Shown: positions 4,628 to 28,167 of the stretch, one piece after another | Position numbering within the stretch: the stretch's first letter is position 1 | Layout of the letters: each line of letters begins with the position of its first letter | Assembly: GCA_030429365.1 (NCBI GenBank) | Contig: JAUIEW010000023.1 | Coordinates: forward strand, 1-32,993 | Reading direction: 5' to 3' | DNA from: Phycisphaerae bacterium | Lineage (GTDB): Bacteria; Planctomycetota; Phycisphaerae; UBA1845 | DNA length: 32,993 nucleotides | Notes under the pieces: model-generated | The model's database searches: none | The model's input: the letters and a program-made list of their open reading frames with translations, nothing else | What the model was told of the DNA's origin: nothing | Position numbers and translations under genes: made by a program

Positions 4628-7006
4628 CTAGCCCACCAGCTTCGACTGGTCGTCTTTCTGTTCCGTGCGCTCTGCTTTCGAGGCATCGTCTTTTGGATAG
4701 GCGACGCGCCCATGATAAAAGCGACAGAGACTCTTGACCAGTGATTCTTCGACCAGATGCAATTCACGCAAGGTGATATCACAGTTATTAAACTGGCCGT
4801 CCTTGAGGCGGGCTTGCAGGACCTGGCTGACGATTCCCTCGATGCGACCGGGCGTCGGTTCGGGAAGGGCTCGCACAGCGCCTTCAACACCGTCACAGAG
4901 CATCAGGACAGCTGTTTCTTTCGAAGTCGGCTTCGGACCCGGATATCGGAATTCAGCTTCATCGACCTGGCGATCGTGCTTTCCGCTGGCGATTTTCGGC
5001 TGTTTTTCGCTGGCACGGTGGTGGAAGAACTTGACGACCGTGGTTCCGTGGTGCTCGGCGATGAACGGATAGAGGACGCGGGGGATCGCGTATTCCTTGG
5101 CCAACTCCAGTCCATCTTTCACGTGTCCCAGAATGATGAGCAGGCTCATCGACGGAGCCAGCTTGTCGTGGCGGTTGATCGACGCTTCCTGATTCTCCGC
5201 AAAATATTCGGCTTTGGGAATCTTGCCAATGTCGTGATACAGGGCGCCGACGTGGGCCAACAAGCCGTCCGCGCCGATCGCATTGCACGCGGTCTCGGCG
5301 ATGTTGCCGATGACGAGCGAGTGGTTGAACGTGCCCGGCGCCTCATGGGCGAGTCGGCGCAGTAGCGGACGATTGGCGTCGCGGTATTCAAGCAACGTCA
5401 GCGATGTCGCCACCCTGAAGAGCTTTTCAATAAACGGCAGCGTCCCCTGGATGATGAGCGCCGAAAGAATAGCGCTTCCCGCGCCGATGACCGCCCGCCT
5501 GAACGCGAATCCGACTTCTTGATGATCGATCAATCCAAAGGCGAAAGACGTCATCATGACGAGCACGCCAGCCACCATGCCGACCGACAACACTTTGGTT
5601 CGCGTGCGAATGTCGTTGAGCATGATCGCCGCGACATATCCACCGGTGAGCATGGTCACGAACTCACCAAGGTTCGCACGGATCATCAAGGCAACGATGG
5701 CGATGTAGATCACCGTCACCCCGGCTGCAAACCGCGGCGGATACGCAATGGTTAAAATCGCGGCAACCAACAGCACCGGCGTCAGGGCAAACTCCGCATG
5801 CGGAAGTCGGGCCACGATAACCCGGATCGCAAACAGGGCGATCAGCAGCAACCCCGCAAAAGCAACGGAACGCGTTTGCACTTCGAAAACGCGCGGTTGA
5901 TATAGCCCGACATAGCTGAACAATGAGATCGATAAGACCAGCAGGATCGCTCCGATACCGAGGCGCTCCAACAACCGTTGCTTGCGGGCATGGACGGCTG
6001 CGGGATCATCGCTTGCAATGAAATCCTGGAATGCCTTGTGTTCAGCGTGCAACAGCGCCAACTCGGCGTGGGTAATACCCGTGTCCAACCCCTCGTTCTC
6101 GTCAAACTGCGGAAGCGTGTGGGGGAATACGAAGGGCTTACCGCCCTCAAAGAGGCGTCTACCGCGAGGTGCATTTCGCTCCGCCTCACCCATCACGTTC
6201 TGGGTCCTTTCCCGATCGTAGACCAGGATGGGTTCCTTACTGAGCATCTCGAGCAGAAACTCCCGAATTGCGGGACGCAATTGTTGGGAAAAATGCTGGG
6301 CGAGAATCGACACCCGGCCTTCCAGCGCGGTTGTGCTTGAGATACGAATGAGTTGGACTGTGGCAAGGCGGCGGTCGGTTGGCGGATTGCTGTCAACACC
6401 GGGCATCTGAATCACGACTTCTGAGGAAGTCGAAGGCGGTTCGCGATCGAGTTGGCCGGACGGGAGCGCCGTTGGCTCCAGAAATAGGTCTTTCTTCAAA
6501 TCATCTAGCGATTGAGAGAATCTGTCTCGCGTGGTTTCGTTGGCATTGTTCAGCAGGTGGTAGACGTACTCGTGGGCCTTCCAGGCGTGTTCCTTGGCTT
6601 TGGCTTGGAATTCCTCGAAGGTCGGCGCCTGGGCGGCTTCAAACATCGCCGACAATTCACGTTCACCGACAATCCGGTCAATAAACTCCGTGTTGACGCG
6701 GTAGAAGTTAGGGACCGATTCGCGGGCCGATTGCTTGTTACGCCGGTCGAGTCCGTCGTCGTTAACTTCAAAACTCACACGCGCAAGAATGGGTTGGTCG
6801 ATTCGCTGGTTGAGCGCGTACGGAATTCCAGGATCACCGGTCAGGCTGATGACGAGGGCCACGAGGAAAAACGCCACCGTGACCACGGCGGGCCAGATTC
6901 CAATCCGCTTAACCAATGCGCGCACCGGCGACTCAGCCGTTTCAGCCTTGAACTGCCGCGCCCGTTCGCGTCTGACCTTTTTCTTTTTGGTGAATCCAAA
7001 CATCAT
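4628..7006 (-). CDS. 7TM receptor / HDIG-domain membrane phosphohydrolase (PgpH/YqfF type, cyclic-di-AMP phosphodiesterase family)
   Basis: N-terminal TM plus extracellular 7TMR-HDED-like region, multiple TM helices, then PLLRRLAHEAPGTFNHSLVIGNIAETACNAIGADGLLAHVGALYHDIGKIPKAEYFAENQ...AEHHGTTVVKFF (HD domain). Confidence 0.92.
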   Translation of the reverse strand: MMFGFTKKKKVRRERARQFKAETAESPVRALVKRIGIWPAVVTVAFFLVALVISLTGDPGIPYALNQRIDQPILARVSFEVNDDGLDRRNKQSARESVPNFYRVNTEFIDRIVGERELSAMFEAAQAPTFEEFQAKAKEHAWKAHEYVYHLLNNANETTRDRFSQSLDDLKKDLFLEPTALPSGQLDREPPSTSSEVVIQMPGVDSNPPTDRRLATVQLIRISSTTALEGRVSILAQHFSQQLRPAIREFLLEMLSKEPILVYDRERTQNVMGEAERNAPRGRRLFEGGKPFVFPHTLPQFDENEGLDTGITHAELALLHAEHKAFQDFIASDDPAAVHARKQRLLERLGIGAILLVLSISLFSYVGLYQPRVFEVQTRSVAFAGLLLIALFAIRVIVARLPHAEFALTPVLLVAAILTIAYPPRFAAGVTVIYIAIVALMIRANLGEFVTMLTGGYVAAIMLNDIRTRTKVLSVGMVAGVLVMMTSFAFGLIDHQEVGFAFRRAVIGAGSAILSALIIQGTLPFIEKLFRVATSLTLLEYRDANRPLLRRLAHEAPGTFNHSLVIGNIAETACNAIGADGLLAHVGALYHDIGKIPKAEYFAENQEASINRHDKLAPSMSLLIILGHVKDGLELAKEYAIPRVLYPFIAEHHGTTVVKFFHHRASEKQPKIASGKHDRQVDEAEFRYPGPKPTSKETAVLMLCDGVEGAVRALPEPTPGRIEGIVSQVLQARLKDGQFNNCDITLRELHLVEESLVKSLCRFYHGRVAYPKDDASKAERTEQKDDQSKLVG

Positions 7007-21773: not shown

Positions 21774-24209
21774 TCAAAGCGAATCGGTCGAAGTGTTCGG
21801 GCTGCGGGGAAACCGATATTGGTTCCGCACATATTCGACCCAAAGCGCCAAGATGACAGTCGAGCCGGCTGCCGCGCCGCCGATTGCCCAATCGGTGAAT
21901 TCACGGGCGCTCGAATCAAATACGAAAGCGGTGCAAACAATCGTAAATGCCGTGAACATTGCGACGGTCGTCAGTTGCCCCCGCATCGTTCGGCAGACGC
22001 CGCGCCGGGCAATGAGGTTGGCCAGCAGACACCCAACGATCGCCATGCCGATAATCAGCGAATATGCCTCGAACGGTAACCAGTAACGGCGATTGACCGA
22101 ATGGCTGCTGACTATTCCTTCGATCGCGTTGGCCATCATGTATCCGCCGGGCACGTTGTGAACAATGCCCGTTGGGTATCTGACGGAATGAAGGTCGCGA
22201 TCTTGCCAAGGCCAAAATCCCGGTGATCGCACGTCGATAAAAATGACGATCTTTCCGCTTACCCATTCCCGCGTTTGTTCATCCGACGCATTGAGCAAGT
22301 CTTCGTACAGGATGGTTCGTGCCTTTTGTTTTTCCAGCGGAATGAGGTCGAACACTTTGGTGGCGGGCCTGTCGCCGACTTCGGTCTTCATCCGCCGATC
22401 GTTGACGGGCGGAAGCGTGATGACCTGGATCTGGTCGATGTCTCGAATGTAATCTTCGGTTCCCCGAATACGATGTTGAATGGTCAACGTATCGGTGCGC
22501 GGCACCCAGGAAACATCACTTTGAAGGTGCGGGTAGAAGAGTCCGCCCAATGTCGCCAGTGCGAGCGACGGAATCGTGCGGTCTCCGCGTTGAAGCGCGA
22601 CGATGAACTCGCCGGGGCGGTCCACCATGTTGCGCGCGTAGATAAGTCCGTGATGGATGACTTCGCGCAGCGGTTCATAGATTGTCGACGCAATTCTGGG
22701 TTTGCCTTCCGAGTCGTACTCAAACGCGCCCAACGCAACTGGGACGCCCGCATCGTCCAATCGTCTGATGCCTTGAACGAACTCACCATCACCAGGTTGT
22801 TCCGACTGAAAGTAAAAGTCCCAGACCACTGCCCGCGGTTTGTGGTAGGCCAATCGCGACATCAGATGCCCGTGGACCGGGCGCCACGACTTTAAGTCAT
22901 TCACAACGTTCTTGATTCCGTTGCTCTGGGCAAACGAGACGACGGGCTCAGACGTGGCATCGCCGATACCGATGATTGCAAAATCGATTGGCCCATCCGT
23001 CATTCTTCGCTTGATCATCTGCTTCTGCGCGCCCGTGCTGTGGGCATCGGTGATGTTTCCAAAATCAATACCATACTTCAGTGTCCCCGCGTAAATCGTC
23101 ACGAGGACGACGGCAATGATAAACATCCAAACCGCCGTGCGCGAGCGCAACATGAGACCAATCGCGATGCGTTGAAACCGATAGCGGAACGGAAGCGGAC
23201 GCGTCTCGATCACATCGCTTTTGTAGAGGCTGGCGATATCTTTGGTCAACTGTCGTGCGGACTTGATGCGTTGGCGCGGTTCGGCTGCGAGACATCGCGA
23301 GATCAACGTTGTCAGACCGGCGGCATATCGCGAATCGGTGATGCGCGGTTTGCGCGGCACTTCATGTTGAATTCGATGCAGGAGAGAGTCGCTGGCACTC
23401 TTGCCTTCGATGGTCTCCAAGCTGTACGGATAGTCGCCATCAGTCGCAATTTCAAAGAGCATGATGCCCAATGCCCAAATGTCGCAACCGTGGTCGATGG
23501 GCATCATGCCGCCCCAGGTTTGCTCGGGGGACATGTATTTGACCGTTCCCATGATGCGGCCAAGCTGTGTCTGGGTCTTGCGGATGTGGGTGGCCCATTC
23601 TTCCGACTGAACCGCCGACAAGCCGAAATCGACCAGCCTTGGTTGGCCCTTCGAGTCGACGAGCAGATGCCGAGGGGTCAGATCCCGGTGAACGACACCT
23701 TGTTCGTGAACGTCTGCAATGACACTGCAGACACGTTCAAAAACCCGAAGCCGGTCCTCGATGGTCAGTGAGGGGTCCTGCATATATTCGTCGAGTGGAA
23801 TTCCCTCGACGAGTTGCATCGCCAAATAGTGCGAACCGGCATAATGTCCTGAATCGAGATAGCGAGAGATGTTTGGACACTCAAGCGCTTTGAGTATTTC
23901 GATTTCGCGCTCGATGAATCGGACGGTGTCCTGATCGGTCACATGGCGCAAGACCTTGAGTGCCACCCACTCGGGGGGATTGCCAAAGCGCAGGGCTTTG
24001 AACACAACGCCGGAACTGCCGTGGCCAAGGCGTTTGCAGCACAGGTAATTCGCAATGATCGGATGTTCCGTGTTTGGCCAAACTTCGCGCAACCGTTCAA
24101 GAGCGTCGGGTTCGTTTGCCAAATCGCTCGCAAGGCGAAGGATTTCATCATCGTGCGCGCGATCAGAAAACAACGCAGACACAAAATTCTGGACCTTGGC
24201 ATCGATCAT
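21774..24209 (-). CDS. Ser/Thr protein kinase - TM - CHASE2 - 3 TM sensor kinase
   Basis: LGHGSSGVVFKALRFGNPPEWVALKVL, VVHRDLTPRHLLVDSKGQPRLVDFGLS, GTVKYMSPEQ; then a TM segment, CHASE2-like IDFAIIGIGDATSEP...LMSRLAYHKPRAVVWDFYFQSEQPGDGEFVQGIRRL, GKIVIFIDVRSPG...GIVHNVPGGYMMANAIEGIV, and three C-terminal TM helices. Start uncertain (track 24305; ATG 24209 plausible). Confidence 0.88.
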   Translation of the reverse strand: MIDAKVQNFVSALFSDRAHDDEILRLASDLANEPDALERLREVWPNTEHPIIANYLCCKRLGHGSSGVVFKALRFGNPPEWVALKVLRHVTDQDTVRFIEREIEILKALECPNISRYLDSGHYAGSHYLAMQLVEGIPLDEYMQDPSLTIEDRLRVFERVCSVIADVHEQGVVHRDLTPRHLLVDSKGQPRLVDFGLSAVQSEEWATHIRKTQTQLGRIMGTVKYMSPEQTWGGMMPIDHGCDIWALGIMLFEIATDGDYPYSLETIEGKSASDSLLHRIQHEVPRKPRITDSRYAAGLTTLISRCLAAEPRQRIKSARQLTKDIASLYKSDVIETRPLPFRYRFQRIAIGLMLRSRTAVWMFIIAVVLVTIYAGTLKYGIDFGNITDAHSTGAQKQMIKRRMTDGPIDFAIIGIGDATSEPVVSFAQSNGIKNVVNDLKSWRPVHGHLMSRLAYHKPRAVVWDFYFQSEQPGDGEFVQGIRRLDDAGVPVALGAFEYDSEGKPRIASTIYEPLREVIHHGLIYARNMVDRPGEFIVALQRGDRTIPSLALATLGGLFYPHLQSDVSWVPRTDTLTIQHRIRGTEDYIRDIDQIQVITLPPVNDRRMKTEVGDRPATKVFDLIPLEKQKARTILYEDLLNASDEQTREWVSGKIVIFIDVRSPGFWPWQDRDLHSVRYPTGIVHNVPGGYMMANAIEGIVSSHSVNRRYWLPFEAYSLIIGMAIVGCLLANLIARRGVCRTMRGQLTTVAMFTAFTIVCTAFVFDSSAREFTDWAIGGAAAGSTVILALWVEYVRNQYRFPRSPNTSTDSL

Positions 24210-24377
24210 GACTAAGGTATCAACGTCTTTTGCAATCTCGGTGACGGTTGCAGCCCACGGTTGTGCCTTATGTTTCTTGCATTGGAACCAACCCGTTGGA
24301 ATCAACCCGGTTGTCAGCCCGCCGATCGAGAGTCCGCCCCAAGATGCGCATGCAGATAGATTACAACATCACGCATG

Positions 24378-24404
24378 TGCGCCATAGAATCGTGCGGTGG
24401 CGCA
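24378..24404. promoter_or_regulatory. Inverted repeat in divergent intergenic region, candidate operator or hairpin
   Basis: TGCGCCA-N13-TGGCGCA between the kinase and the sigma-factor gene. Confidence 0.3.
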
Positions 24405-24502
24405 TTCTCAATGACTTCTTTCAAACGAGCCACACAGGCTCACAAATGGGCCAAGCAGGGTAGTTGAATCACGCGAAATCCAGTGTGAATCACGGATGAC
24501 CA

Positions 24503-25144
24503 ATGTCAAGCCAACCATGGTGGACTGTAATCTCATCGCGCGAATTATTCCAACTGCGGACGCGCTTGCTCCGCTCGTTGGAGAAGGAGTTTACGGGCAT
24601 CGTCGCCAGTGATCGTGAAGATCTCGTCCAAGAGGCTCTGCTGATACTGATACGCAACAAAGAGCAAGTGTTACCGGACGATGATGGGCTCTTCCGTTAC
24701 GCCCGGCGGGTCGCCAAGAATGCCGCGCTGGACCTGGTGAAATCTGCTTCGCGCCGAATGGCGACCGCCCTGAAAAAAGTCGGCGCCCAAAGTGGCGCGG
24801 GCCAAGTTCATACAGCACGAATTCCAGAGTCCAGTCGTTCCCTCAAGGGCTCGCGAACCCCTGCATCCGCGTCTGCCAGCGACCTCCTCGCCAACGCTGC
24901 AGAATTCCTCCATTCATCGTCTACGGTGCCCTCCGCCCGTGCCCAATCGGAAAAAAACGAAGAAATCTTCCAAATTCGAAAAATTTTCTGCGAACTTGAG
25001 GATCTCAATCGTTTGGTATTGTGGAGCTATGTTGTTGATGGCCAATCGATCAATGCCATTGCCAAGCAACTGAACATCGGCTGGCATCGTGTGGCTTACA
25101 TGATCGAGCATTCGCTGAATCGCTTTCGGCAACATCTCTCCTGA
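24503..25144 (+). CDS. ECF-type RNA polymerase sigma factor with long Ser/Ala-rich inter-domain linker
   Basis: Region 2: DREDLVQEALLILIRNKEQVLPDDDGLFRYARRVAKNAALDLVKSASRR. Region 4: LEDLNRLVLWSYVVDGQSINAIAKQLNIGWHRVAYMIEHSLNRFRQHL. Confidence 0.82.
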   Translation: MSSQPWWTVISSRELFQLRTRLLRSLEKEFTGIVASDREDLVQEALLILIRNKEQVLPDDDGLFRYARRVAKNAALDLVKSASRRMATALKKVGAQSGAGQVHTARIPESSRSLKGSRTPASASASDLLANAAEFLHSSSTVPSARAQSEKNEEIFQIRKIFCELEDLNRLVLWSYVVDGQSINAIAKQLNIGWHRVAYMIEHSLNRFRQHLS

Positions 25145-25182
25145 TCGTTCCTTATCGCTTTGCAACAAAGGATGGTCCCAGT

Positions 25183-26037
25183 ATGTCCATGCGCGACAAG
25201 CAGTCATCTTCAAGTGGTCGTTCCAGCGATCGGTCGTCATCTGCAAATCAGCCGCCAAAGCAGGCAATTGATGACCCAGAGCAGACAGCTGATAACGCAG
25301 AGCAGGCAATTGATGACGCCGCCTATCTCAGAAAGCTTCTCGAAACCTTGAGTGCCGAGGATCCCGCCGTGTTCAACGAATTGATGATGTCGAATTCACT
25401 GTTGGCGGATGAATACCACCGCGCCAACCCACAGATCGATCGGATTCGCGATGCACTGGTTCATGATGCGATGCCGGTTCATGCATCAGAAGATTCAGGC
25501 GCGAACAGCGCCGCACCCTTGGACGAAACTGCGGGCGTCGAACTGGAATTCGCCAAAGTCGTGGCGCAGATCAAAGAGCGGCTTTCCCGTGGTGAAGAAG
25601 CGATGCGTCCTCTTATCGGTGCATCGTTCGAGTCCCCGCAAGATGCTGGCATCCTCACGAATGTCACCAGGCAGTTGTCAGCGGAACAGGCCCGGCAGTT
25701 ATTCGAAAAGCTCGCACCAATGCTCGTGTATACAACGCTCAAACACATGAACTGCAATTGCTCATTTGATGAGGTTGACCGAATCGCCGGGCGCCTTTGT
25801 GGGCATGACGCACAGACAAAACTGCGACAAGCGGAGCACACCCGCGACGCGCTCGTGGACGAATTATTGCTCGCCATGGTTGAGCAGGGAGTCGGGAGTT
25901 CTGAAGCGAAAATAAATGGGGTTGGAAGTTCGTTGGATCGTGCTGAGATGACCAGGCTGCTCGAAGAGAGCGGCGCGATGGCCGACTTGGTCGCGATGTC
26001 CAATTGTATCCTGCTGGCCAAAACGCAAGCAGGCTGA
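25183..26037 (+). CDS. Hypothetical soluble helical protein with N-terminal heptad repeats and Cys/His motif
   Basis: Continuous 284-aa ORF directly downstream of the sigma factor. No TM segment recognised; N-terminal QAIDDPE-QTADNAE-QAIDDAA repeats; HMNCNCSFDEVDRIAGRLCGHD motif. Confidence 0.75.
   Translation: MSMRDKQSSSSGRSSDRSSSANQPPKQAIDDPEQTADNAEQAIDDAAYLRKLLETLSAEDPAVFNELMMSNSLLADEYHRANPQIDRIRDALVHDAMPVHASEDSGANSAAPLDETAGVELEFAKVVAQIKERLSRGEEAMRPLIGASFESPQDAGILTNVTRQLSAEQARQLFEKLAPMLVYTTLKHMNCNCSFDEVDRIAGRLCGHDAQTKLRQAEHTRDALVDELLLAMVEQGVGSSEAKINGVGSSLDRAEMTRLLEESGAMADLVAMSNCILLAKTQAG
25261..25323 (+). repeat. Three 21-bp tandem repeats (in-frame heptapeptide)
   Basis: CAGGCAATTGATGACCCAGAG / CAGACAGCTGATAACGCAGAG / CAGGCAATTGATGACGCCGCC. 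Confidence 0.8.
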
Positions 26038-26276
26038 TACTCGGTCGGGACTGGACGCTAGTAGCATCGAATTCCAAAGGAATCGAACTCGAGCAAACCA
26101 AAATTCAGGCCGAATTGGCACCCGGGCACGTTCGACTGCGCTTGGGATCAAAGGTTTTGTGGTACGCATGTGTGCGCCGCAGAGTCGTGCATGGTGTGGC
26201 TGTCCGCAGGATTGCCCGCGCCGTTGTCGGCTGACGTGCATCCATTGCAGTTTGACTCATTGGAAGGATTGAAATC

Positions 26277-27515
26277 GTGGGCGCATCACTCCGAATGCAT
26301 CGATTTCTTCAGGGAAGTACAGCCGCCTTTCGCCGCGCTCGTCGACGACTTCGGGAATTGGCATCAGCGAGGTGGCGCGATGAGCAACAATCCGTACGAA
26401 TCACGGAAAGTGTCTTGGGCATTGAGAGCCCCATTGGTTTGCCCCACGTCCACGTCATCCAAACGTCATCGGGCTTGCACAATTCGCCAGTGACCAAGGA
26501 TGTGTTGACAGACTGCCCGTATACGAAGGTTGATGTGGGCGCTGCCAATGGCACACAACGTTCATTGAATTTTCCCGGCAATGGAAAGGGATCCCAGCCG
26601 CAGTGTGAGGCTTCAATGGACCGGTACGATTCTGCAAATGAAAGAGACAGACGTACCCATGAATCAGACCGGTCCGCCCACCAAACAAATCGGCCGACTC
26701 AAGAGAGAGTGTGGGCGTCCAATGGTGCACAAGAGAGTGCCACTGACCCAGTTATCAACGTCGAACAGTTTGTGCATGACCTGGACAATCTCCTGATGGT
26801 GATTGCCAACCGCGCCGACCTCGCCCAAGCCGATCTTGCGTCGGACCGAAAGTGTGCCGAATCAATTCGCGCGATCCAGATTGCGACCCAAAGGGCCCTT
26901 CGGCTATCCGAGTTATTGCGCCGGGCTGAATCGGATGCCGAAGTACCGCTCGACAAAGTGAATCTGGCCCATGTCATTCAGGCCACGGTGGATAGCGCGA
27001 AGGCTTGGACCCCCAAGAATGTGGCGATCGTCGAAGACCTTCCAGTGGACACGTCCCCGATTGTGCTCGGCAACTTCACACAGTTGGGGCGGGTCGTTGG
27101 GAATCTTCTTTCAAACGCAATCGATTCATTGCGCCCGGGCGGGCATGTGTGCGTCTCGCTTGAATTGACGGACAAGTGTGCCGCCCGGCCTCACTCTGCT
27201 TCTCCAAACGCCGATGGCCCATTTGACAAAGGCCGACGCGATCAACGCCAGCAGTCGCTTAGACGAATGGCTGTCTTGCGCGTGTGCGACAATGGCGTTG
27301 GGATGGATGCCACCGTCTTGAATCGTATTTTCGAACCGGGGTTCTCGCAGAAGCGACGTGGGACAGGAAACGGCTTGGGGATGACCATCGTCGCCGACAT
27401 CGTACGGGACCATGGCGGCGACCTTGCGATTGATTCGACTCCCGGTGAGGGGACCGAGGTGAGTATTCGTTTACCGATCGCCGGCTTTGATGAGAGAAAT
27501 GCAGGTCATGTTTAA
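26277..27515 (+). CDS. Soluble sensor histidine kinase (HisKA-like plus HATPase_c)
   Basis: FVHDLDNLLMVIANRADLA (HDxxNLL-type phospho-acceptor), QLGRVVGNLLSNAIDSLRPGGHVCVSLEL (N box), LRVCDNGVGMDATVLNRIFEPGFSQKRRGTGNGLGMTIVADIVRDHGGDLAIDSTPGEGTEVSIRLP. GTG 26277 is preceded by GGAAGGA; the N-terminal region (to about 26760) has no recognised domain. Confidence 0.85.
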   Translation: MGASLRMHRFLQGSTAAFRRARRRLRELASARWRDEQQSVRITESVLGIESPIGLPHVHVIQTSSGLHNSPVTKDVLTDCPYTKVDVGAANGTQRSLNFPGNGKGSQPQCEASMDRYDSANERDRRTHESDRSAHQTNRPTQERVWASNGAQESATDPVINVEQFVHDLDNLLMVIANRADLAQADLASDRKCAESIRAIQIATQRALRLSELLRRAESDAEVPLDKVNLAHVIQATVDSAKAWTPKNVAIVEDLPVDTSPIVLGNFTQLGRVVGNLLSNAIDSLRPGGHVCVSLELTDKCAARPHSASPNADGPFDKGRRDQRQQSLRRMAVLRVCDNGVGMDATVLNRIFEPGFSQKRRGTGNGLGMTIVADIVRDHGGDLAIDSTPGEGTEVSIRLPIAGFDERNAGHV

Positions 27516-28167
27516 GTGTGCTGCTCGCATCATGCTTGTCGATGACCACGAATTGGTGCGTTCGACGTTTCGAGATGTTCTCAATCGAATGCCGGAATTC
27601 GACGTGGTGGCAACAGTCGGCAATCGGAAGGACGCGTTGAAATTCGCGTCGCAGGAATGCTGCGACCTGGCATTGATCGATATCAATCTCCAGGGCGAGT
27701 TGGGCACAAACCTTGCCCTCGAAATCAAGCGATTGCAACCCGGTATCAAGACCGTACTAATCAGCGCCACGATATACGATCGCTACGTGGATCAAGCGAT
27801 CGCAATGAACGTCGATGGCTTCATCTCAAAGCGAGACGACCTCGTCAATTTCATCAAAGGCATTCAAACCGTCTTGAGGGGGAATCCCTTTTATTCCAAA
27901 GATGTCCTCGAACGGTTGGCGAAGTGCTCCAAAACGGGCAAGCCCCTTAAGCCTCTGCAGACCCGAAGAACCGTGATCACACCTCGGCAAATTGAGATTC
28001 TTAAACACATTGCCAAAGGGCGATCCAAGAAAGAAATTGCTCAGGCGCTGGAAGTGGCGGTGAAGACCATCGATTGCCATTGCGACAACATGATGAAACG
28101 TCTCGACCTTCACGATCGTGTCGCCCTCACACGGTATGCGGTGCGCGAGGGTTTCGTCGATCCCTAA
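27490..28167 (+). CDS. NarL/FixJ-family response regulator (REC + LuxR-type HTH)
   Basis: IMLVDDHELVRSTFRDVLNRMPEFDVVATVGN...CDLALIDINLQGELG...VITPRQIEILKHIAKGRSKKEIAQALEVAVKTIDCHCDNMMKRLDLHDRVALTRYAVREGFV. The start overlaps the histidine kinase 3' end. Confidence 0.94.
   Translation: MREMQVMFKCAARIMLVDDHELVRSTFRDVLNRMPEFDVVATVGNRKDALKFASQECCDLALIDINLQGELGTNLALEIKRLQPGIKTVLISATIYDRYVDQAIAMNVDGFISKRDDLVNFIKGIQTVLRGNPFYSKDVLERLAKCSKTGKPLKPLQTRRTVITPRQIEILKHIAKGRSKKEIAQALEVAVKTIDCHCDNMMKRLDLHDRVALTRYAVREGFVDP

Follow-up and report, generated by a model that had tools for sequence, protein, structure and literature searches.

A conserved planctomycete gene module uniting a CHASE2 receptor Ser/Thr kinase, an ECF-like sigma factor, a protein with an undescribed helical domain and a two-component pair

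ECF sigma factors of group ECF43 are encoded beside a transmembrane (TM) Ser/Thr kinase (STK) of the Hanks type, with no membrane anti-sigma factor (EcfP/PknT of Vibrio; EcfK/PknS of Xanthomonas). They have no acidic motif in region 2.2 and are inactive until phosphorylation of a threonine there restores the charge (PMC8999054); in EcfK, the segment joining regions 2 and 4 is a further target of phosphorylation, its T106 being important in vivo (PMC13147305). Other STK-linked ECF groups keep the acidic motif, and their mechanism may differ from that of EcfP (PMC8999054). A different arrangement is found in the EcfG/NepR/PhyR system of Alphaproteobacteria, where an ECF sigma factor, a small soluble partner, a response regulator (RR) and a histidine kinase (HK) form one regulatory unit. 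CHASE2, in turn, has been noted as a kinase-tethered domain in cyanobacteria (PMC2877116).

The locus described here has traits of each of these systems. It lies in the window, that is, the whole stretch of 32,993 nucleotides of a Phycisphaerae genome that was analyzed, and all five open reading frames listed in a preliminary description were recovered there with coordinates and strands as reported. A gene on the minus strand (21774..24209) encodes an STK with a CHASE2 sensor (STK-CHASE2, 811 aa), as judged from Pfam (Pkinase, E=1.2e-37; CHASE2, PF05226, E=2.5e-6, 27.7 bits versus a cut-off of 26.3), the starts of homologues and the fold predicted by AlphaFold2 (AF2). Homologues favor ATG at 24209 as the start, and the TTG at 24305 chosen before is probably too early. 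Divergent from it, and all on the plus strand, follow the genes for an ECF-like sigma factor (213 aa; 24503..25144), a soluble helical protein of 284 aa (25183..26037), for which neither Pfam nor NCBIfam gave a match and which is called UNK in the following, a soluble HK with a HATPase_c domain and no TM sensor (26277..27515), and an RR of the NarL/LuxR type with Pfam matches to Response_reg and GerE (REC-GerE; 27508..28167). Homologues place the start of the RR gene at ATG 27508, so that the overlap with the HK gene, which had been claimed before, amounts to 8 nt. The intergenic region between the divergent genes (24210..24502) putatively carries the promoters of both the kinase gene and the sigma operon. 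By hydropathy, only the kinase contains TM segments; sigma, UNK, HK and RR contain none, and the earlier observation that a TM anti-sigma factor is missing therefore holds. Besides UNK, the locus offers no anti-sigma candidate, and besides the kinase no TM protein.

The 213-aa protein was recognized as a sigma factor through Sigma70_r2 (PF04542, E=2.2e-6) and TIGR02937 (sigma70-ECF, 49.1 bits versus a cut-off of 42.9). Pfam gave no match for region 4; the TIGR02937 alignment extends to residue 209, and a conserved C-terminal block resembles a region-4 HTH. Region 2.2 contains the acidic motif DRED(L) in the window and D-x-[ED]-D throughout the family, with D40 being invariant and residue 39 either Glu or Asp. 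Across the family alignment, region 2.2 contains no conserved Ser or Thr, and the only invariant residue of this kind is S182. Owing to its acidic motif, the sigma factor is proposed to be intrinsically competent for RNA polymerase. Unlike ECF43 sigma factors, it also has no Thr at the switch position, and the EcfP/PknT precedent put forward in the preliminary description is consequently not supported as the mechanism; activation of the EcfP type was discarded as the main model because of the retained acidic motif. It is still conceivable, though unlikely, that the kinase phosphorylates and activates sigma directly, as in EcfP/PknT and EcfK/PknS, with UNK being an accessory. The divergent kinase/sigma pair is conserved in nine genomes, and control by phosphorylation has been predicted for planctomycete STK-linked groups with DAED-like motifs (PMC8999054). 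Furthermore, the linker that connects regions 2 and 4 is long and, like the phosphorylated linker of EcfK (PMC13147305), a possible site of phosphorylation, being rich in Ser and Thr. Against direct phosphorylation of sigma speak not only the acidic motif and the lack of a conserved Ser/Thr in region 2.2, but also the linker itself, which cannot be aligned and varies greatly in length, and the fact that the constant partner of the kinase lineage is UNK, not sigma (see below).

A protein search covering 100 relatives located true orthologues of the sigma factor in the window's genome, in four congeners, in three other genera of the same family (G022, G029 and G046) and in another family of the order (G056). 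In these nine genomes (five from one genus, most of them metagenome-assembled, and all from one Phycisphaerae order), STK-CHASE2 is divergent from sigma, UNK, HK and RR in the same order and orientation. The module is intact on a single contig in eight of them; in G046 it is split over two contigs, with a break after sigma, and UNK, an HK-like protein and the RR follow on the second contig. The nine genomes with sigma are also the only ones with the type of UNK encoded beside it. The relatives carrying the locus are Phycisphaerae metagenome genomes, for example Phycisphaerales bacterium UBA1845. One of them, a public metagenome-assembled genome with locus L046 (JANQQE010000030.1), is labeled Alphaproteobacteria; its sigma factor is 57% identical and its synteny fully planctomycete, which is why the label is probably wrong.

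Outside the module, the flanking genes are conserved within the genus. G022, G029, G046 and G056 share no flanks with two representative loci of the genus or with each other, which argues for the five genes moving as a module. In the trees of the kinase and of sigma, G056 forms a group with G022 and G046 that excludes G029 (support 0.90 and 0.89, respectively; weak, 0.31, for UNK), and this placement of a genome from a different family again suggests movement as a unit. The module is real and conserved, and has apparently moved as one unit within one order. For the preliminary description to be refuted it had been required, among other things, that no relative keep the gene order; eight further genomes clearly keep it, four of them without common flanks. 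That the five genes are merely neighbors without functional connection, for which one could cite the wealth of kinases in the window's genome (45 Pkinase stretches), is hardly credible given the same order in nine genomes, the unrelated flanks in four of them and the broadly congruent gene trees. So far as gene order can tell, this reading is already refuted.

UNK had been described as a heptad protein. However, AF2 predicts a helical bundle and no coiled coil. Its C-terminal domain (25648..26034, plus strand; GILTxVTRQL...), delimited by profile searches and AF2, is modeled as an all-helical bundle with a pLDDT of about 90, and the confidence for the N-terminal part (25183..25647, plus strand) is only moderate. 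A fold search of the model in the PDB gave no usable match (best E 1.1), nor did a profile search of PDB sequences. Among 114 genomes of the order, the UNK profile detected 13 copies in 12 genomes. The domain was not found outside the order, either in 397 genomes of the class (including order members) or in 392 genomes of the phylum, the latter being searched with an earlier profile only. On the strength of these profiles and models, the C-terminal 119 aa are an undescribed helical domain.

In all 13 loci, the UNK domain adjoins a gene for an STK-CHASE2 (in G046 on separate contigs with fitting ends). Four of the copies, none of them at a locus with a sigma factor of the module family, stem from another family: two from G092 and one each from G113 and G089. 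In these proteins, a receiver (REC) domain, or two in the case of G089, comes before the 117 to 119 residues of the C-terminal domain, and this architecture (REC-UNK) makes the UNK domain the output domain of an RR. The adjoining gene encodes, in four of four cases, an STK with a match to CHASE2 (in G113 with 26.0 bits just below the cut-off of 26.3), and in G113 HK, REC-UNK and STK form one apparent operon. The second REC-UNK copy of G092 (L055:976-3492 and 4700-5470) has a partner kinase from a different lineage of STK-CHASE2, which suggests two independent UNK-kinase pairings. When the sigma type and the REC type of UNK were compared by hhalign, the C-terminal domains proved homologous (Prob 99.9, E 2.8e-37) and the N-terminal parts did not (Prob 0.3). 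The N-terminal part of UNK is therefore specific for sigma loci and takes the place that REC has in loci without sigma; that it might be a degenerate REC domain was dismissed, given the hhalign result and its all-helical AF2 model. The constant association with STK-CHASE2, together with an N-terminus that is REC where sigma is absent and helical where sigma is present, suggests an adaptor whose C-terminal domain faces the kinase and whose N-terminal part is exchangeable.

The invariant residues of the C-terminal domain are T159, H219, R221, E227 and C275. T159, located at the start of the domain, is the only Thr shared by every aligned copy. This makes it the most likely phosphosite, but its role may be structural. 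The position of UNK directly downstream of sigma, its strict co-occurrence with sigma and its lack of TM segments would also suit an anti-sigma factor of the ordinary soluble kind, whose hold on sigma is relieved either by sensing of its own or by the RR, with a separate role for the kinase; the conserved Cys206, His219 and Cys275 could then form a redox or metal site. The probability of this alternative is rated low, as the domain is found without sigma but never without an STK-CHASE2 neighbor, and as both the ZAS motif and an anti-sigma match in Pfam are absent. More specifically, no UNK homologue contains the zinc motif HxxxCxxC, for which reason UNK was rejected as a ZAS or class I anti-sigma factor, and its N-terminal part matched none of the known anti-sigma domains.

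The predicted kinase fold of the window protein is closest to PknB. Its protein kinase domain (23247..24035, minus strand; Pfam) shares with the other sigma-linked kinases an invariant P-loop, the Lys of the VAIK motif (VALK in the window), the C-helix Glu, HRD and DFG; SPE and the F-helix Asp are likewise invariant in all nine, over a range of 38 to 85% identity. The exception is the metal-binding Asn of the catalytic loop (HRDxxxxN), which kinase alignments show to be His in nine of nine sigma-linked kinases (HRDLTPRH in the window; 23667..23690, minus strand), with an additional Lys-to-Thr change at the level of the genus. The Asn is kept in 31 of 31 readable kinases of the family without UNK, in the four REC-UNK partners and in every other kinase of the window's own genome with a readable loop. 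The sigma-linked kinases form one clade in the kinase tree (support 1.0), which includes one partial kinase at a contig edge from G010, and the sister of this clade comprises three REC-UNK kinases (support 0.98). As the former all have His and their readable relatives all have Asn, the change coincides with the gain of sigma. Kinase activity, and hence phosphorylation by these kinases, cannot be assumed; without the Asn, they may be weak or inactive.

Carried further, this would mean that the sigma-linked kinase has degenerated into a (pseudo)kinase that acts through its conformation as a membrane receptor and scaffold, and that the output of sigma is governed mainly by HK and RR acting on transcription. 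Apart from the substitution itself (His in all nine, the further change within the genus, and Asn in all readable relatives), this notion is favored by EphA10, a pseudokinase in which His occupies the corresponding position (PMC7586955). Yet EphA10 has also lost the Asp residues of HRD and DFG (PMC7586955), both of which are kept here, and the invariance of all other catalytic elements, from P-loop to F-helix Asp, is unusual for a dead kinase; moreover, His is able to bind metal. The notion is therefore considered improbable.

The CHASE2 region of the kinase (22029..23018, minus strand) is predicted from Pfam (PF05226), hydropathy and AF2 secondary structure to be an extracytoplasmic sensor between TM segments. 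Its score, which is only just above the cut-off in the window, reaches up to 55.7 bits in relatives, and 57 of 100 relatives have a kinase of this type, as detected with a profile of the region. A direct CHASE2 search of the window's genome matched a second CHASE2 protein (G000:C107:5408-7288, L001; an open frame of 1024 aa) and missed the window kinase. Next to the 34 STK-CHASE2 kinases without UNK, no neighbor matched the module profiles for sigma, UNK or HK; the neighbor profile could miss a more divergent sigma factor, and none was recognized among the neighbors listed for 14 of the loci. One of the 34 has an unrelated single REC ORF ~2 kb away. An N-terminal HxxxCxxC motif (ZAS/zf-HC2-like) ahead of the kinase domain is encoded at L054:8048-10588, at L056:6672-9116 and at many of these orphan loci (L132-L145). 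The motif is present in three of the four REC-UNK partner kinases and in none of the sigma-linked kinases, whose clade, to judge from this distribution, has lost it.

In the HK, HATPase_c (E=7e-22, Pfam) is accompanied by the phospho-acceptor H167 within an HD[LV]xNLL motif and by conserved N- and G-boxes; in the RR, D59 of REC (A4 numbering) and K109 are conserved. A phospho-acceptor His with an ATPase domain and a REC Asp were thus found throughout, with the exception of the G046 HK (L058:817-1767), which consists of HisKA and a C-terminal REC without HATPase domain and is therefore not expected to autophosphorylate in the usual way. The G022 HK (L025:10198-11382) has an apparent REC-like stretch at its C-terminus, without confirmation by Pfam. 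As the N-terminus of the HK is poorly conserved among module copies and G046 deviates, the two-component pair may not have the same role in every copy. The target of the RR could be a direct repeat, TGAATCACG-N12-TGAATCACG, located just upstream of sigma (24465..24494, plus strand), which would suit an output dominated by HK and RR, that is, the pseudokinase notion. The repeat is, however, only partly conserved within the genus, its spacing differs between species, and the four copies of TGAATCACG in the window are not unusual for a random sequence (7 of 100 shuffles); being noticed post hoc, it was given no weight. Scanning the window locus for sigma-70 promoters yielded none. Upstream of sigma in four loci from outside the genus (L025, L026, L027 and L028), TTGACA or TTGACT is followed by a 17-nt spacer and an AT-rich hexamer; these promoter-like elements are of the housekeeping rather than the ECF type.

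The genes, their domains and order, the linkage of UNK to the kinase, the REC fusion, the N-terminal swap and the catalytic-loop change were established directly; from this genome context, we infer the contacts, any phosphorylation, the direction of control and the nature of the signal. Tentatively, but with a probability not far from even, the locus is read as a self-contained module whose membrane receptor kinase and sigma factor are connected by UNK, an adaptor made of two parts. As the receptor, STK-CHASE2 would read an extracytoplasmic signal via CHASE2 and alter the state of the UNK C-terminal domain, either through phosphorylation, with T159 as the best candidate, or through binding. 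The N-terminal part of UNK, present only where there is a sigma factor, would hold or release the latter, which would already be competent for RNA polymerase by virtue of its acidic region-2.2 motif; UNK would thus be a soluble anti-sigma factor or sigma adaptor. The soluble HK and the LuxR-type RR might provide another input or a feedback, the most likely targets being UNK or the transcription of the operon, and in the relatives without sigma the two-component input would be built into UNK as its REC domain. The earlier proposal that the kinase controls sigma, possibly via the 284-aa protein, gains from the context that ties UNK to the kinase (13 of 13 loci), and the EcfP-type route is not supported; the proposed cross-connection to the two-component pair is in part borne out by the fusion of the UNK domain to REC in loci without sigma.

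Compared with ECF43 and its Hanks kinases, the module adds an adaptor and an HK/RR pair, and its kinase has CHASE2 and an altered catalytic loop. It is akin to the planctomycete groups ECF59, ECF61, ECF62 and ECF217 (PMC8999054) in phylum, STK linkage and a DAED-like motif (reported for the non-ECF43 groups), a comparison made by description; a conserved UNK, HK or RR is not described for them in that report. Fusion of REC to the partner domain in relatives of the module is reminiscent of PhyR. Unlike in EcfG/NepR/PhyR, the RR of the module is REC-GerE without a sigma-like domain, REC-UNK of G113 has no sigma-70 match in Pfam, a membrane STK is part of the unit, and UNK is unrelated to NepR by Pfam. 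With other CHASE2 Ser/Thr kinases, the module clade shares the combination of kinase domain and CHASE2 sensor in one membrane protein, but it is without HxxxCxxC and the catalytic-loop Asn, and it is tied to sigma and UNK. The module is best read as a variant of STK-linked ECF control, one that includes an adaptor domain not described before and a two-component input.

A bolder version, which we regard as possible but doubtful, holds that the UNK C-terminal domain is a new dedicated partner of receptor Ser/Thr kinases with a swapped N-terminus (REC or sigma-binding), so that a single adaptor would wire one membrane kinase and a two-component pair to an ECF sigma factor. If true, this would be a mode of sigma control distinct from anti-sigma release, from EcfP-type phosphorylation and from the PhyR partner switch. 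As an adaptor, UNK would be compact and soluble, with a domain that has no counterpart in Pfam, NCBIfam or solved structures, and from the natural swap of its N-terminus one can predict which half contacts the kinase and which one contacts sigma. The kinases, for their part, constitute a natural series in which the catalytic-loop Asn was replaced by His in one lineage. For STK-linked ECF sigma factors with an acidic motif, the mechanism of control may differ from that of EcfP (PMC8999054), and the module is a candidate for the missing link.
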